From: Meiothermus sp. Pnk-1
Lineage (GTDB): Bacteria; Deinococcota; Deinococci; Deinococcales; Thermaceae
Assembly (NCBI RefSeq): GCF_003226535.1
Contig: NZ_QKOB01000001.1
Span: forward strand, 248,001 to 312,000
Direction: 5' to 3'
Length of the DNA stretch: 64,000 nt
Positions 2,482-8,909 of this stretch are shown in pieces. How positions within the stretch are numbered: position 1 is the first letter of the stretch; each line of letters opens with the position of its first letter. Both the position numbers and the translations under genes were made by a program. The notes below the pieces were generated by a model, which was not told where the DNA came from, searched no databases, and saw nothing but the letters and a program-made list of their open reading frames with translations.

Positions 2482-2697
2482 ATGAACAAGGATCAGGATC
2501 ATAAAAAACTGATAAAGGTCACAGAGGCGGCCAAGCAGTTGGGGGTTTCCCGGCAAACTCTTGCTCGCTGGATTCGGCAGGGGTGGATTCCTGCCGTGCA
2601 GATCGGCGATAGGTTCAGGGTTTCTGCTGAGGTGATCGAGGAGCTTCTCGACAAGGCCAAAAAGGTGCCCACCCCCCAGGCCGAGGAGGTGGGCTAA
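2482..2697 (+). CDS. Excisionase-family helix-turn-helix protein
   Basis: The 71-residue protein has the MerR-like/excisionase HTH layout: KVTEAAKQLGVSRQTLARWIRQGWIPAVQIGDRFRV, i.e. recognition helix plus wing, residues about 11-50. Such proteins bind DNA as recombination directionality factors or plasmid/phage regulators. The start codon follows GGAGAG with good spacing, and a GC-rich hairpin (about 2441-2464) lies just upstream. Its stop codon is 1 nt before the GTG of the primase-helicase gene, so the two are surely co-transcribed. It probably regulates element replication or excision; which of the two is unclear. Confidence 0.8.
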   Translation: MNKDQDHKKLIKVTEAAKQLGVSRQTLARWIRQGWIPAVQIGDRFRVSAEVIEELLDKAKKVPTPQAEEVG

Positions 2698-2698
2698 C

Positions 2699-5377
2699 GT
2701 GGGGCAGACTCTACCAGAGGTGATGGAGGTGAGCAACTGCCCCTCCAGTCTAGCGCAAAAGCGCCGCTGGGTGGTATGGCGCTACGTGGAGCGGGACGGC
2801 AAGCAGACCAAGGTCCCTTTCCAGCCCGACGAAAAGCCCGCCAGGAGCAACGACCCCACCACCTGGCACACCCTGGAGGAGTGCCGGAAGGCCCTCCAGG
2901 GTGGCCGGTTCGACGGCTTGGGCTTTGTGCTGGGGGACGGTATCACCGGAATCGACCTCGATTGGAAGGAATATCCCGGTGAGGGTGTCCCGACCGAAGC
3001 CCGGACCATCGTGGACCGGCTCGACTCTTACGTGGAGTGGTCACCCTCCGGCAAGGGCTGCCACATCCTGTTGCACGGCAAGCTGCCCGAAGGGTGCCGC
3101 AACCGAAAAAAGCTAGCCCCCGGTGTGGAGTTGGAAGTTTATGACAAGGGCAGGTTTTTTACCTTCACAGCCGAGCACTGGGAAGGCTACCCCGACGATC
3201 TCCAGGAGTGCCAGGCCGAGCTAGAGGCTTTGCTAGCCGACTTGGGGGTGTTGTCCACAACACCAGCACCCCACCCTGTGGCGCTGGACGACCAGGCCCT
3301 GCTAGAAAAGATGTTCCAAGCCGAGAACGGGGCCAACATACGCCGCTTGTGGCAGGGTGACACCAGCGGCTACTCGTCCCAGTCCGAGGCCGATTTGGCC
3401 CTGTGCTCGCACCTACTGTGGTGGACGAACAACGATGACGGGCGTGCAGATCGGCTGTTCCGGCAGTCGGGCCTGTACAGACCGAAGTGGGATGAGCAAC
3501 ACGCTGGGAGCGGCAAGACCTACGGCGAGATGACCCTGGAGAAGGCCCGGAGTAGTAGCCCTTACCGGGGACTGGAGGCGCAACCGGAGCGGAAAAAGGA
3601 AAAGGAATCCACCCGCCTGGTATCCCTGGCGGCAGACGCGCAATTCTGGCACAGCCCCGACGGGACGGCTTGGGCGAGTATTCCCGTCGAGGGTCACATC
3701 GAGCACTGGCCGGTGGACAGCCGCCCCTTCCGGCTTTGGTTATCCGGGCGCTTTTATCGCACAGAGGGCAAAACCCCTCACCACCAGGGGCTGAAGGATG
3801 CCCTTGCTGTCCTGGAGGCTAAGGCGCTTCACGATGGTGTTTCATGCCCGGTGTTTACCCGGCTGGCCGAGCACGATGGGCGAATCTACCTCGACCTGAG
3901 CCGCCCCGATTGGAGTGTGGTGGAGATAGACGCCCACGATTGGCGGATTGTACCCGCCGCCGGTGCACCGGTGCGATTCCGGCGTACCCCGCACCAGAAG
4001 CCTTTGCCGATACCTGAGCGGCCCGGTGACCTGGAACCGCTGAAGAGGCTTGCCCCCACAAAGGACTGGCCTCTGCTCCTGGGGTGGATCATCGGAACGC
4101 TGAACCCTGGGCCAGGAGCATACCCGCTGCTGCTCCTGGCCGGGGAAAAGGGTGCGGGGAAGTCTACGCTGGCCCGTATGCTGAAGGCCCTGGTGGACCC
4201 CAGCGAGGGGATGCTGCGCACCGAGCCGCGCAGCGACGAGCCGGTGATCATTGCCGCGCTAAACGATCTGATCGTGGCCTTCGACAACCTGTCGGGTGTC
4301 CCGCCCTGGTTATCCGACATTCTGTGTGTGGTCGCCACCGGTGGGGCTTTATCGAGGCGGCAGCTATACACCGACAGCGGGGAGGTCGTGTTATCGGTGT
4401 GCCGCCCGGTGATCCTGACCGGGATCGGCTTTGGCCTGCTGCGCGATGACCTGGCCGACCGGACGCTGCGAATAGAGGTAGCTCGTATTCGGGACGAACA
4501 ACGGTTGACCGAAGGGGAGCTGTGGCAGCGCTTCGAGGCAGCGCACCCCCGCATCCTGGCCGCCCTGCTGGACGCCGTGAGCACCGCCCTGGCCCGAAAA
4601 GCGGAGGTAACCCTCAAACCGCTACCCCGGATGGCCGACTGGGCGATCTGGGCCGAGGCCGCCAGCCCCGCCCTGGGCTGTGCTCCGGGTGAGATCGTGC
4701 GGGCCTTCAACAGCGCGCAACAGGCTTTGAGCGCCGATTTGCTGGAGGGGAACCCCCTGGCCCAGGCTGTGCTCGATCTGGTGAGCGATTGGCCGGAGGG
4801 TAACCGTCAAGTCTACACTTCCAGGGAATTGCTCGACGAGCTGGGGCGGATAGTGGGCAGCCCCCCTCCGGGCTGGCCGCGATCCCCTGTGGCCCTGGGC
4901 AAAGCTCTGCCGCGCTTGCAGGAGGCCCTACGCCGGGCCGGGGTTATCCTGACAGGCCAGCGCGACTCTTACACCAACTCTTTTATATGGAGCCTAGAGG
5001 TTCGGGCACAGGCCGAACGTGCCCCGGAGGTGGAAAGCCCCCCGGCTGCCCTACCCTCTCAGGAGGCCCTATCCGATAATCCCGCCCAAACCCCGGAGGA
5101 GGGGGAAGACGGGTGGGAGCGGCTGGAAAGGAATATCCCCCGGATACTGGAGGCCCTACGGGCAGAGAAGCCGAGATTGCTACGCCTCAAAAGCGAGCAG
5201 GGGGAGAGTTACCCCATGATCCTCAAACCGGAAGAGGAGCTGGCGAAGAGGGGAATAGGCCCTCGAAGCTGGGAGGAACTGCTGCGGGATCAGATCGTAA
5301 TGGGGAGGAAGGAGTGGCCACAGGCCAAGAGGGTTGAGGTTTGGGCGGAAACCCCTGAGGGGTGGAAGCCCCTTTGA
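2699..5377 (+). CDS. Fused primase-polymerase (AEP superfamily) and AAA+ helicase, element replication protein
   Basis: The 892-residue protein is likely the replication initiator of the element. Residues about 15-180 resemble the NrS-1-type archaeo-eukaryotic primase-polymerase: WVVWRY near the start, the metal-binding GIDLDW (D86, D88), and SPSGKGCH (H122). A middle region without clear motif precedes an ATPase with Walker A GEKGAGKST (482-490), Walker B-like LIVAFDN, and a following CRPVILTG segment. This combination primes, extends and unwinds DNA in phages and plasmids. The GTG start is preceded by AGGAGGT at 8 nt; an internal ATG at 2723 is an alternative. It overlaps no other gene and ends at a strong terminator. 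Confidence 0.85.
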   Translation: MGQTLPEVMEVSNCPSSLAQKRRWVVWRYVERDGKQTKVPFQPDEKPARSNDPTTWHTLEECRKALQGGRFDGLGFVLGDGITGIDLDWKEYPGEGVPTEARTIVDRLDSYVEWSPSGKGCHILLHGKLPEGCRNRKKLAPGVELEVYDKGRFFTFTAEHWEGYPDDLQECQAELEALLADLGVLSTTPAPHPVALDDQALLEKMFQAENGANIRRLWQGDTSGYSSQSEADLALCSHLLWWTNNDDGRADRLFRQSGLYRPKWDEQHAGSGKTYGEMTLEKARSSSPYRGLEAQPERKKEKESTRLVSLAADAQFWHSPDGTAWASIPVEGHIEHWPVDSRPFRLWLSGRFYRTEGKTPHHQGLKDALAVLEAKALHDGVSCPVFTRLAEHDGRIYLDLSRPDWSVVEIDAHDWRIVPAAGAPVRFRRTPHQKPLPIPERPGDLEPLKRLAPTKDWPLLLGWIIGTLNPGPGAYPLLLLAGEKGAGKSTLARMLKALVDPSEGMLRTEPRSDEPVIIAALNDLIVAFDNLSGVPPWLSDILCVVATGGALSRRQLYTDSGEVVLSVCRPVILTGIGFGLLRDDLADRTLRIEVARIRDEQRLTEGELWQRFEAAHPRILAALLDAVSTALARKAEVTLKPLPRMADWAIWAEAASPALGCAPGEIVRAFNSAQQALSADLLEGNPLAQAVLDLVSDWPEGNRQVYTSRELLDELGRIVGSPPPGWPRSPVALGKALPRLQEALRRAGVILTGQRDSYTNSFIWSLEVRAQAERAPEVESPPAALPSQEALSDNPAQTPEEGEDGWERLERNIPRILEALRAEKPRLLRLKSEQGESYPMILKPEEELAKRGIGPRSWEELLRDQIVMGRKEWPQAKRVEVWAETPEGWKPL

Positions 5378-5393
5378 TCTGAACGGTACAGAG

Positions 5394-5420
5394 ACCCCGC
5401 CAAAAGAGGCGGGGTGTGTT
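5394..5420 (+). terminator. Terminator after the primase-helicase gene
   Basis: ACCCCGCC (5394-5401) pairs with GGCGGGGT (5408-5415) across a 6-nt A-rich loop, followed by GTGTTTTA. It starts 17 bp after the stop codon and runs into the palindrome at 5421. Confidence 0.8.
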
Positions 5421-5441
5421 TTACCTACACTGTATAGGTAA
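5421..5441. promoter_or_regulatory. Near-perfect palindrome, twin of the site at 6400 (candidate operator)
   Basis: Arms TTACCTACAC and GTATAGGTAA around a central T, with one mismatch. Apart from that mismatched base and the central base it matches the perfect copy at 6400-6420. It lies between the primase-helicase terminator and the TCCGGA cluster. A half-site (TACCTACAC) recurs near 5466. It may be an operator or a promoter (TATAGG on the plus strand) for a transcript through the origin-like region. Confidence 0.6.
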
Positions 5442-5506
5442 CCGTTCACGGGATTACAGTTGGGGTACCTACACCCTCCGCAATCCCCACAGCTAGGCTG
5501 TTGGGC

Positions 5507-5869
5507 TCCGGAGGTTCCGGAGATGAACTGGAGATGAGAATCGGAATCTCCGGAAAGTTTTTGCCGTCTGGAACGCTGTTTCCGGAGTTTCGGAGGTTCT
5601 GGAGGTTTTTCCGGTACTTTTCGCGCAACATATACACGGGGGGGTGTTACCCCCCCCGTACCCCCTTTCTCTTCTTCTGCGCACTAAGGGGGGAGAATCT
5701 CCAGAATCTCCGGACCTCCGGAGAACCCGTCCTGGACGTGTTTTTTTCTCCGGAGATTCTTTTTCTCATCTCCGGAATCTCCGGAAATCTCCGACCCCCG
5801 TCCTGGACGGGTTTTCTCAAAGAACCCCTCCTCTAATCTCGTTTTTCATGTTTTTCATCTCTCTCCGGA
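5507..5869. repeat. Cluster of ten TCCGGA palindromes, candidate replication origin of the element
   Basis: TCCGGA occurs at 5507, 5516, 5549, 5581, 5709, 5717, 5749, 5771, 5780 and 5864, often within CTCCGGAAT/AATCTCCGGA contexts, plus degenerate copies. The left part reads as an imperfect inverted copy of the right part around a central G-run/C-run hairpin near 5636-5655. The whole 5378-6062 stretch has no convincing gene and is richer in A/T runs than its surroundings. A 8-bp stem-loop (CCCACAGC/GCTGTGGG, 5883-5903) follows. Position next to a primase-helicase gene suggests iterons of an origin; this is inference. Confidence 0.65.
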
Positions 5870-6062
5870 ATCTCTAACCCCCCCCACAGCCCGAAGCTGT
5901 GGGACTTGTGGCGGGTGTGTGGAAGATTGGTCACCCCAGGACACAAGTCGTGCACTCTGCCCCGGCTGTGGTGGGGTTTGTTATGTCGAGGACAGATTAT
6001 CAGGGGCTTTGTACGGTTAGAAAATAGCCGCTAACTTTACTTAGGGGAAATTACCAGCCGGG

Positions 6063-6398
6063 TCACTTCCCCTTCTTCGAAGCGCCGTCCACAATCTCCG
6101 TATACAGGCTCTGCGCTTCCCTCTTCCCCACCGGCTTGACCCTAGGCCCCATGCCCTTCAGGCGCTTGCCTATGCGGGCTAGAGCCGCCTGTGCGGCAGC
6201 TTCCGCCTCTTCGAGGGTGTGGAAGTACGTCCCCCCGTTCTCCAGGGGAGTAGGCTCACGAAGGTACTTCTCCCGGGGAGGCTCCCACTCCTCCGTGATC
6301 TTTTTCAGGGCCAGCTCCGGGGAGGCATTGGCATACACTCGCCAGGAGTAGTATTCGTACAGCTTCCAGCGCTCCTCGTCGGTCAGGTTCGGGTTCAT
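6063..6398 (-). CDS. Hypothetical protein of the element, behind a palindromic operator
   Basis: A 111-residue soluble, charged protein not recognised from any family. It is mostly predicted helix, with a Trp/Tyr-rich start (EERWKLYEYYSWRVY) and an Ala/Glu-rich helix near residues 62-78. The ATG is 2 nt from a perfect palindrome (6400-6420) that contains a -10-like TATAGG on this strand, so transcription is probably controlled at that site. It is the last gene of a leftward run from the integrase side. Its function is unknown; a small element regulator or replication accessory are guesses only. Confidence 0.65.
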   Translation of the reverse strand: MNPNLTDEERWKLYEYYSWRVYANASPELALKKITEEWEPPREKYLREPTPLENGGTYFHTLEEAEAAAQAALARIGKRLKGMGPRVKPVGKREAQSLYTEIVDGASKKGK

Positions 6399-6399
6399 G

Positions 6400-6420
6400 T
6401 TACCTATACAGTATAGGTAA
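6400..6420. promoter_or_regulatory. Perfect 10-bp-arm palindrome at the start of the 111-residue gene
   Basis: Arms TTACCTATAC and GTATAGGTAA around one central base. It ends 2 nt before the ATG at 6398, so a protein bound here would block transcription or translation initiation. The only close relative in the window is 5421-5441. Confidence 0.75.
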
Positions 6421-6425
6421 AGCTC

Positions 6426-6994: not shown

Positions 6995-7519
6995 TTACCC
7001 TAGGTTCTCATCAAACAGAACCTGATCGTTGCGGGTTATTTTGAGCCCCCAGCACAGGCTGTTAGACATGGAGCCCAGAAAGTCTCTCAGGTCCCAAGCG
7101 TGCCCAAAGACGCCCACCTCCGGGAGTCCCCAGGCGTCGTGCTTCACGACGTAATGGGCGAACTCCGGCGGGAAGTCCAGGCTCTCTCTGGCCCTCTTGA
7201 ACAGACTTTCGTCCACCAGAGGGATTCTCTGCCCCCCAAGGATCAGGGTGGGGCCACGGAGGCTGAAGACCTCCTCGAAACTGTGGTCTTTTCCCCGCAT
7301 CAGCCGCAAGGAGTACGTGCCGTTCCGGCGCAGTGTCGGAAGGGCTTCCCGGAGAATGCCCTCGATCTCGGCGGGGTCTTGTTTTCCTAGGGGCAGCACG
7401 TCGAAAAAGCCCCCGTCTTTCACGAAGTGCGCGACCTCGGCCCCCGCCAGGAGGGGGGCAACGTCACCCAAATAGTGTTCCAGAATCCGCCAGGGGCGGA
7501 ATTGGGGCTGTGTCTTCAT
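6995..7519 (-). CDS. Hypothetical protein of the element, translationally coupled to the small HTH gene
   Basis: A 174-residue soluble protein without recognised domain. The ATG at 7519 overlaps the stop codon of the upstream HTH gene by one base (TAATG), which points to coupled translation; a longer reading into that gene is rejected. A GGGGTGGGGA tract serves both as coding sequence of the neighbour and as ribosome site. A region with DFPPEFAHYVVKHDAWGLPEVGVFG is its most distinctive part. The tight link to an Xis-like protein hints at a role in element regulation, but nothing in the sequence shows it. Confidence 0.7.
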   Translation of the reverse strand: MKTQPQFRPWRILEHYLGDVAPLLAGAEVAHFVKDGGFFDVLPLGKQDPAEIEGILREALPTLRRNGTYSLRLMRGKDHSFEEVFSLRGPTLILGGQRIPLVDESLFKRARESLDFPPEFAHYVVKHDAWGLPEVGVFGHAWDLRDFLGSMSNSLCWGLKITRNDQVLFDENLG

Positions 7520-7695
7520 TATTCCCCACCCCGCTGCAGCCGCTCCAGGAAGGCCTTTGGCACATAAACCCGCTTCCCTAGACGAAAAGATGGAATATCC
7601 CCCCGCTTGATCGCTTTCCACACTGATCGATAGCTCAGGCCGAGCATCTTTGAAGCCTCCTTTATCCGATAAGCTGCGCGTTGTGGAGTTTCCAT
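7519..7695 (-). CDS. Small excisionase/AlpA-like HTH protein (58 residues)
   Basis: The protein begins METPQRAAYRIKEASKMLGL and continues with SYRSVWKAIKRGDIPSFRLG then KRVYVPKAFLERL: helix-turn-helix plus wing of the excisionase family. Size and position beside the integrase fit a recombination directionality factor that binds near the attachment site and turns integration into excision. GGAGG stands 7-8 nt before the ATG, and a TATAAT promoter lies 18 bp upstream. Its stop codon overlaps the ATG of the next gene. It is transcribed in the same direction as the integrase gene but after it. Confidence 0.8.
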   Translation of the reverse strand: METPQRAAYRIKEASKMLGLSYRSVWKAIKRGDIPSFRLGKRVYVPKAFLERLQRGGE

Positions 7696-7787: not shown

Positions 7788-8705
7788 CTACTTTCGGCGT
7801 AGCAGGCGGCTGACAGGCGAGTGCTCAGCGTGGAGGACGCTAAGGTCGGCCTGGGCCAGTCGAACGTACCGCTGCGTCATTGCCGGTGTTCGGTGCCCCA
7901 TCAGCGTTTGCAGGGCGAAGGGGTTCAGCCCGTCCCTGACCATCGTCGTTGCAGCCCCCCTCCGAAAGCTGTGTGGCGGCTTGTAGGCCTGCCCTGCCGC
8001 CCTGGAGAGCCGCCACAGCATGGAGCGTAGGGCCTCGTAGCTCATGGGGTCACCCCGCCGGGTCAGAAACAGCCGGTCGCTATCCGACATCGGTCGCTCG
8101 GCCTGGACGTAGACACGAATCGCCCGGCGGGTTACGCTGCTCACCGGCAACACCTGCCACATCCCCCCCTTGCGTCTGACCCGTAACCCTTCGGGCTGAA
8201 CATCGTCCAGCCTCAGCCCCAAGACCTCGCTGGCCCGGCTGGCGGTGTCCCATAGGGCTAAGATCAGGGCACGATCCCGCAGGGGGGTACTGGAAGTCTC
8301 GGCGGCCTCCAGCAAGCGCCGTACTTCGGCCTCGCCGATCACCGGCACTTCGCCCACGACGAGCCGTGGACCTTTGACACTCTTGGGGTCCAGGGCCTCC
8401 ACCCCCTCGGCGCGCAACCAGTTCAGGAAGGCCCGCACCGCCCGCCACACGGCGTGAACACCGCCGTGGGACATCCCCCGCTCAAACTGATGACGCAGGA
8501 AGTTCTTCAGGTCATCCGCCGTCAGTTCTTCCGGGGGCCAATCCCCAAAATTGCGCAGGAATACGATAAGGGTATCCCGGTAAAACGCGATAGTTTTCGG
8601 GCTCAAGCCCCGCGATTGGCCGTCCAACAGAAAAGCCTCGAAGTACCGCCGGATTGTTGGGGAAGTTCTGACCTTCTGACGTTTTAGCCCGCTCGACTTG
8701 CGCAT
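7788..8705 (-). CDS. Tyrosine recombinase, integrase of the tRNA-Leu element
   Basis: Catalyses integration and excision between the 61-bp attachment repeats. The protein has 305 residues: an N-terminal SAM-like core-binding domain (about 15-105, with SPKTIAFYRDTL) and a C-terminal catalytic domain. Catalytic residues are seen in ASRASEVL (R157), PHSFRRG (His and Arg), GHR (His) and TQRYVRL (nucleophile Y280). The ATG at 8705 is preferred because GGAGGGGGT precedes it; an upstream in-frame start at 8771 would overlap the GTCCTGGAC box. Its start lies about 110 bp from the right attachment site, the usual place for such integrases. Confidence 0.92.
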   Translation of the reverse strand: MRKSSGLKRQKVRTSPTIRRYFEAFLLDGQSRGLSPKTIAFYRDTLIVFLRNFGDWPPEELTADDLKNFLRHQFERGMSHGGVHAVWRAVRAFLNWLRAEGVEALDPKSVKGPRLVVGEVPVIGEAEVRRLLEAAETSSTPLRDRALILALWDTASRASEVLGLRLDDVQPEGLRVRRKGGMWQVLPVSSVTRRAIRVYVQAERPMSDSDRLFLTRRGDPMSYEALRSMLWRLSRAAGQAYKPPHSFRRGAATTMVRDGLNPFALQTLMGHRTPAMTQRYVRLAQADLSVLHAEHSPVSRLLRRK

Positions 8706-8784
8706 TTTCGACCCCCTCCACCCCCCGCTGTTGCAACGCCATAGGCGTGTCCTGGACGGTCGAAAGCTCAAGTCGCATGAACGA

Positions 8785-8816: not shown

Positions 8817-8819
<3 letters not shown>
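8785..8819 (-). terminator. Hairpin terminator between tRNA-Leu and the integrase gene, carried by the element
   Basis: On the minus strand GCACCAGAGCG pairs with CGCTCTGGTGC across an A-rich loop, followed by CTTTTGT. It abuts the 3' end of the rebuilt tRNA; the last 3 bp of the stem fall inside the attachment repeat. It would end the tRNA transcript before the integrase gene. Confidence 0.7.

Positions 8820-8909
<90 letters not shown>

Follow-up and report, generated by a model that had tools for sequence, protein, structure and literature searches.

Organization of the Element

The window analysed here is a 64-kb stretch of the genome of Meiothermus sp. Pnk-1. It contains an element of approximately 7.1 kb, which is integrated in a tRNA-Leu gene and is flanked by 61-bp att direct repeats. 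An array of short repeats lies within the element, between the PrimPol-helicase gene at 2699-5377 and a set of oppositely oriented genes. As a first-pass annotation had stated, the repeat segment is free of genes, being noncoding DNA 3' of the PrimPol-helicase gene, and the adjoining gene does encode a primase-helicase (NrS-1 HBD, 3.9e-25, plus an AAA+ helicase). The features outside of the array are the following:

1728-1788, no strand: attL, 61-bp direct repeat matching part of tRNA-Leu, 100% identical to 8817-8877
2482-2697, plus strand: 71-aa HTH_17 protein of excisionase/regulator type (Pfam HTH_17, 3.9e-12; PHROG 66, excisionase/regulator)
2699-5377, plus strand: 892-aa PrimPol + AAA+ helicase, predicted initiator (NrS-1 HBD, 3.9e-25; PHROG DNA primase)
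5420-5442, no strand: TTTACCTACACTGTATAGGTAAC, probable operator, with an inverted partner at 6399-6421 (arms 96% complementary)
6399-6421, no strand: partner operator, upstream of the minus-strand gene 6063-6398 (arms 96% complementary)
7519-7695, minus strand: 58-aa HTH_17 protein, possible excisionase (Pfam, 1.8e-11)
7788-8771, minus strand: tyrosine recombinase (integrase; Phage_integrase, 1.6e-29)
8817-8877, no strand: attR, 61-bp direct repeat, overlapping the intact tRNA-Leu(CAA) gene at 8824-8909 on the minus strand (Rfam tRNA)

The tRNA is the sole Rfam match, and several of the eight ORFs scanned have no family match in Pfam and PHROGs. The near-identical inverted operators (TTACCTAYACWGTATAGGTAA, 5420-5442 and 6399-6421) flank the array region and the 6063-6398 gene and are likely autoregulatory.

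The same genome contains a second element (L036), which is located at tRNA-Trp and has a 55-bp att repeat. The palindrome GTCCWGGAC is present in both elements, at positions 1822, 1930, 5729, 5800 and 8749 of the window and at 6090, 10660, 10804 and 13730 of L036. In several Thermaceae elements it occurs close to the two termini and within or beside the array; in some of them it abuts tRNA 3' ends, and in L036 it lies within the 55-bp att repeat. A further element-like region is present on contig 5 of this genome (L154, 5931-6869 and 9276-9350); its integrase is 49% identical to that of the window, and a 75-bp noncoding stretch there is 77% identical to window positions 5978-6052.

Architecture of the Repeat Array

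Ten exact copies of TCCGGA are present at 5507, 5516, 5549, 5581, 5709, 5717, 5749, 5771, 5780 and 5864, with only four more in the remaining 63.6 kb of the window and 445 in the 3.51-Mb genome (approximately one per 7.9 kb). This is the number that the first-pass annotation had reported at 5507-5869 as exceeding chance, and it does: in dinucleotide shuffles (n = 2000) of the noncoding segment 5378-6062, the mean count was 0.43 and the maximum was 4, while the commonest of the 64 possible six-bp palindromes in each shuffle averaged 1.7 copies, also with a maximum of 4. The chance expectation of about 0.1 copies given earlier should be nearer 0.2 for 363 bp, a correction that leaves the excess unaffected.

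The hexamer is the core of a larger 9-bp unit, AATCTCCGG, present with 0-2 mismatches. Approximately 19 such units (two mismatches or fewer) are found in 5508-5868, compared to a mean of 2.8 and a maximum of 10 in shuffles, and the first of them lies 131 bp past the stop codon of the 2699-5377 gene. Since TCCGGA is only the core of the 9-bp unit and the units of most related arrays are non-palindromic, palindromy is not the operative feature.

The units form a near-perfect dyad centred at approximately 5651, with eight opposite-strand unit pairs mirrored about this point; the average under permutation is 3.2 pairs, and eight were reached in 0 of 5000 permutations. The loose inverted repeat described earlier is thus confirmed, and its symmetry exceeds what was claimed. 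The G-run/C-run hairpin placed in its middle was likewise borne out, as a G7/C8 stem at 5636-5659 caps the predicted fold of the region. When weaker overlapping matches are set aside, the left half reads three minus, one plus and three minus units, and the right half reads three plus, one minus and three plus:

5508-5536, minus strand: outer left triple, iteron units at 5508, 5517 and 5528 (unit scan)
5545-5553, plus strand: lone opposite-strand iteron unit of the left half (unit scan)
5582-5607, minus strand: inner left triple, iteron units at 5582, 5590 and 5599 (unit scan)
5636-5659, no strand: G7/C8 hairpin, centre of dyad symmetry (sequence and DNA fold)
5696-5721, plus strand: inner right triple, iteron units at 5696, 5705 and 5713 (unit scan)
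5729-5737, no strand: GTCCTGGAC palindrome within the array (sequence)
5750-5758, minus strand: lone opposite-strand iteron unit of the right half (unit scan)
5767-5794, plus strand: outer right triple, iteron units at 5767, 5776 and 5786 (unit scan)
5800-5808, no strand: second GTCCTGGAC palindrome, just beyond the outer right triple (sequence)
5860-5868, plus strand: outlying isolated unit that holds the tenth TCCGGA (unit scan)

As single-stranded DNA, the 5500-5880 region is predicted to fold into a single long imperfect hairpin (5509-5792, z -6.45) with the G7/C8 stem as its cap. The local G+C content across the array is 43-62%, and a scan of it revealed no clear AT-rich opening region. 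No other genome was matched when the array was searched at the DNA level against the genomes of the family. The window array is a variant among those described below: it is noncoding, palindromic-cored and more degenerate than most of its relatives.

The PrimPol-Helicase Protein

Of 50 genomes searched from the same family, 24 encode relatives of the replication protein. Named relatives, from a scan with the helicase alignment, include those of Thermus brockianus, T. arciformis, Meiothermus rufus, M. taiwanensis and M. hypogaeus. Three parts of the gene matter for what follows:

2726-3556, plus strand: PrimPol + helix-bundle (HBD) part, approximately 80% DNA identity to the second element of the same genome
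4142-4168, plus strand: Walker A motif GEKGAGKST of the helicase (alignments)
4754-5002, plus strand: C-terminal winged helix of the helicase, which may read the iterons (AlphaFold2 model residues 396-478, pLDDT ~91-97)

The PrimPol-HBD part is 34.9% identical to the NrS-1 phage polymerase. The helicase domain of the family has no specific Pfam match, and a PDB sequence search with the helicase profile returned generic ATPase P-loop matches only, whereas a fold search gave specific relatives, the best PDB matches being full-length AsfvPrimPol, the NrS-1 C-terminal region, SCCmec Cch, the SaPI5 primase-helicase and D5/E5 helicases. The two parts of the protein have different relatives, and the gene is therefore modular. 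Residues 291-892, modelled with AlphaFold2 (mean pLDDT 88.9), are predicted to form an AAA+ domain followed, at approximately 686-768, by a winged helix with the order helix-strand-helix-helix-strand-strand; the domain names are our reading of the secondary structure of the model.

In a blastn comparison, window positions 2777-3565 match 7945-8754 of L036 with 79.9% identity, which stops at the PrimPol/helicase junction. Judging from this alignment, modules are exchanged at the DNA level, with a PrimPol common to two elements of one genome. At the other end of the protein, the last ~90 residues (5087-5374) resemble, by eye, a small separate protein of other elements, the gene of which directly follows the helicase gene, e.g., downstream of the main ORF in L046 and L047; weak matches to these residues are also present in L025 and L026. 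Because of this resemblance, a gene fusion at the C-terminal end of the window protein is likely.

Arrays in Other Thermaceae Elements

In elements whose PrimPol or helicase is shared with the window, the top short-repeat cluster is usually located just 3' of the helicase gene or in its last ~300 bp. The arrays are mostly dense dyads, and their units differ: CCGGGAACA, GTGGGAACA, CGGTAACA, CCACCGCA, CCCCCGCA, CTACCGCA, ATAGCCGC, CACTGAC and AATGTCA. Those of the helicase group L037-L044 are mostly convergent too, with other units. In the more distant relatives L053-L058 there is no repeat cluster at the helicase 3' end. Another PrimPol element (L060) has a cluster of 14 TGCTAA copies upstream of it, at approximately 5835.

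The DUF927 group consists of L036, L045, L046 and L047, the DUF927 match itself having been found for L036 and L046. In three of these four elements, ten units are located at 104.5, 95.5, 51.5, 33.5 and 19.5 bp on either side of the dyad centre, and two palindromes, GTCCNGGAC, lie at +-72 bp in three elements; the fourth element is similar, with slightly wider spacing and palindromes at +-78. Between L036/L047 (ACCGGGAACA) and L045 (AGTGGGAACA) or L046 (ACCGGTAACA), the same change is found in essentially all ten units, and the unit positions remain base-exact across three of the four elements despite these concerted substitutions. A trans-acting protein that reads every unit would cause such a concerted change at fixed positions, and neither slippage nor coding constraint readily accounts for it.

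Two closer parallels between the window and the Thermus helicase arrays were considered and rejected. By eye, the half-arrays share a spacing (triple, ~37 bp, opposite single, ~18 bp, triple). Permutation, however, gave P values of 0.07-0.83, and the spacing of the window half-array is not significantly matched by that of any relative. The window unit, written as GAATCTCCG, agrees with the consensus of the Thermus helicase group, CANNNNCCG, at four of five fixed positions, for which we estimate a chance of about 1/4 given the 18 registers.

Arrays at Helicase Genes of Other Phyla

A scan based on the helicase alignment yielded 80 loci, of which the 75 with enough downstream sequence were kept without other selection. 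The 80 loci come from taxa that include Alphaproteobacteria, Bacillota, Planctomycetota, Chloroflexota, one cyanobacterium and one methanogen MAG. The strongest repeat cluster of the locus fell within -150 to +450 of the end of the helicase domain in 60 of the 75 cases, compared to 4.3 expected; the second-best clusters fell in this interval seven times. The effect is large, although the nominal P of 2e-60 overstates the evidence because related genomes are over-represented. Most of the 60 clusters are wholly coding (45), 11 are noncoding and four straddle the stop codon. The commonest spacing between same-strand neighbour units is 9 bp (123 of 236), and the two halves converge in 28 of the 46 arrays with at least five units. 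Judging from these loci, symmetric arrays of this type recur where the helicase gene ends in numerous bacteria and in some archaea, and the repeat sequence differs from one to the next.

Three plasmid relatives were examined. The archaeal plasmid pH6Ac (L141) has eight copies of CGCCTCC at the helicase 3' end, the second-best cluster in the record; no cluster was found at this position in two Methylobacterium plasmids. In pH6Ac, a stronger cluster (AACTTTGC, seven copies) is located at 812-1010, upstream of the replication gene.

Candidate Readers of the Units

The second element of the same genome again provides a comparison. L036 has a DUF927-type helicase and units, CCGGGAACA, that are unrelated to those of the window despite a PrimPol that is ~80% identical at the DNA level. 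A similar PrimPol thus coexists with different helicase modules and different units, and therefore the PrimPol does not set the unit. Further unit sequences accompany those PrimPol relatives that are joined to DUF3987 or to other ATPase modules. As unit type varies without regard to the PrimPol, the ATPase module is more likely to be the reader, and by comparison of these elements the window units are most likely bound by the helicase portion of the 2699 gene product. Within it, the units would most likely be read via the modelled C-terminal winged helix; unit similarity correlates with that of the winged helix (rho 0.50) and of the ATPase domain (rho 0.44) without discriminating between the two domains. 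Across the loci, elements with more similar helicases also tend to have more similar units (Mantel P 0.002), a trend to which shared descent contributes.

The first-pass annotation had suggested iterons bound by an initiator, the product of the gene at 2699, and this proposal gains strong comparative support from the recurrence of the arrays and the element-specific, concerted nature of their units. Its other candidate, the HTH protein at 2482, is not supported: it is an excisionase-type protein of 71 aa, and its clear homologues are found in only some of the array-bearing related elements.

A Candidate Iteron Origin

We propose, with a probability of roughly 0.8, that 5508-5868 is the iteron replication origin of the 7.1-kb element and that its units are bound by the element's own helicase. 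Once the element had excised at its att repeats in tRNA-Leu, the 9-bp units would be bound by the helicase portion of the 892-aa protein, most likely via the C-terminal winged helix, and, the array being a dyad, two ring helicases of opposite orientation would assemble, facing each other across it. The DNA would open at the central hairpin, after which either the PrimPol domain of the element or a host primase would prime synthesis. There are precedents for such recognition: SaPI Rep reads iterons directly downstream of its own gene via its C-terminal domain, and SCCmec Cch2 binds such downstream repeats in vitro (PMC7581432). What the sequences show directly is the array, its dyad symmetry, its place and its return with other units in relatives; binding, the binding domain, helicase loading and origin activity are inferred, the mechanism by analogy with SaPI Rep and SCCmec Cch2.

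For the related ICETh2, the circular form is reported to increase little over the free site and Ppol to be dispensable, and the authors raise a possible Hel-dependent replication (PMC7693054). Replication of the window element may, by the same token, be weak or conditional. These findings on Ppol and Hel fit helicase-led initiation, although they do not prove it.

An alternative that we consider unlikely is an origin of the pRN1 type, in which the long hairpin and not the 9-bp units would be recognised by the replication protein. In pRN1, a stem-loop of ~100 nt that closely follows the PrimPol-helicase gene is required (PMC4234260), and the window array and 13 other Thermaceae arrays all fold far beyond shuffles (14/14, z -4.4 to -12.1). 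However, the fold is not independent evidence because any dyad array of identical units folds in this way automatically; moreover, pRN1 and related plasmids are reported to lack iterons, while window-type units stand in tandem at 9-bp spacing and undergo concerted change.

It is still less probable that the array is a multi-operator region for a regulator of the element, such as the HTH_17 protein at 2482. The element does carry a regulator gene, and a noncoding location between the replication gene and the opposite gene set would suit such a region, but TTACCTACACTGTATAGGTAA at 5420-5442 and 6399-6421 is a better operator candidate, the arrays are coding in 45 of 60 relatives, and the patchy occurrence of 2482-protein homologues among array-bearing elements also speaks against it. 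A slightly smaller chance is left to the units being template sites for primer synthesis by PrimPol/HBD, as opposed to duplex initiator sites. The NrS-1 PrimPol starts at specific template motifs, TTTGGTTA and GTG (PMC8718748), and the window PrimPol has an NrS-1-type HBD; yet the window unit matches neither motif, and PrimPol parts 54-77% identical to that of the window come with unrelated units. Least credible is a neutral 9-bp satellite grown by slippage, for although the units are tandem and some copies are degenerate, they are placed on both strands as a dyad, occupy a fixed place in 60 of 75 relatives and have undergone concerted substitution at fixed positions.

Comparison with Known Systems

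The system that we propose, an iteron origin read by the element's own helicase, would work like the initiator/iteron origin of SaPIs. In both cases a small integrative element encodes an element-specific AAA+ initiator helicase with a C-terminal DNA-binding domain (both the role and the domain being predicted for the window), and iterons, 19 units in the window, are located directly downstream of the helicase gene. Unlike in SaPIs, the window helicase is fused to an NrS-1-type PrimPol, the 9-bp units form a dyad, and the arrays of its relatives are mostly coding. No genes for PICI/SaPI phage-satellite packaging or helper-phage interference were found among the eight ORFs (Pfam, PHROGs), and on the genes scanned the element does not count as a phage satellite.

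ICETh2 of Thermus thermophilus HB27 (Ppol-Hel-Int2) is similar in its PrimPol and helicase, tyrosine integrase, tRNA att site and Thermaceae host; it differs in that the window PrimPol is fused to the helicase and the PrimPol is of another family. The window helicase is 50-54% identical to those of Thermus elements of the same layout, which we infer to be ICETh2-like. By gene content and helicase similarity, the window element belongs with the Thermaceae PrimPol-Hel integrative elements around ICETh2.

SCCmec uses serine recombinases. In its Cch2/CCPol-MP system, an initiator helicase binds direct repeats downstream of the operon and a primase is present, which resembles the binding suggested for the window; the differences are that there are just three 5-nt iterons and that the primase is another one. 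The pRN1 ORF904 protein has the same PrimPol-HBD-helicase-winged helix layout, and the origin just 3' of its gene forms a long hairpin, but this is an archaeal plasmid without iterons, whereas the window has 9-bp units. The NrS-1 phage polymerase has a homologous PrimPol-HBD and a structurally similar C-terminal helicase; it is, however, a phage protein known for template-motif-specific priming and not for an iteron array. Plasmids of the RepA/Pi type combine a Rep that has two winged helices with 17-22-bp iterons, an AT-rich opening region and DnaA boxes. Assignment to this type was rejected, as there is no such Rep among the Pfam hits, the units are 9 bp long and there is no clear AT-rich region.

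Concluding Remarks

In the consulted passages, the two papers on ICETh2 (PMC7693054 among them) describe no origin for the PrimPol elements of Thermaceae, and a survey of AEP primases (PMC5862659) mentions no iteron origin. As judged by a keyword search of the open-access literature, a family-wide dyad array located mostly in the 3' coding end of the helicase gene appears to be unreported. We would give even odds to the more general view that, in a widespread AAA+ helicase family, the origin is a dyad array of 9-bp units at the 3' end of the helicase's own gene, usually within its coding part, and that gene and array together make up a self-recognising replicon cassette that swaps primases and diversifies its iterons, letting several elements share one genome.

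The array provides an exact and testable origin candidate for the PrimPol elements of Thermaceae, including ICETh2, the source of the commercial TthPrimPol. Arrays of this kind can be recognised from the sequence alone in approximately 60 loci of bacteria and an archaeal MAG and therefore offer a route to the origins of uncharacterised integrative elements. They also make up a large natural collection from which the co-evolution of initiator helicases with their iterons could be learned. If the array is functional, small vectors for thermophiles may become possible.
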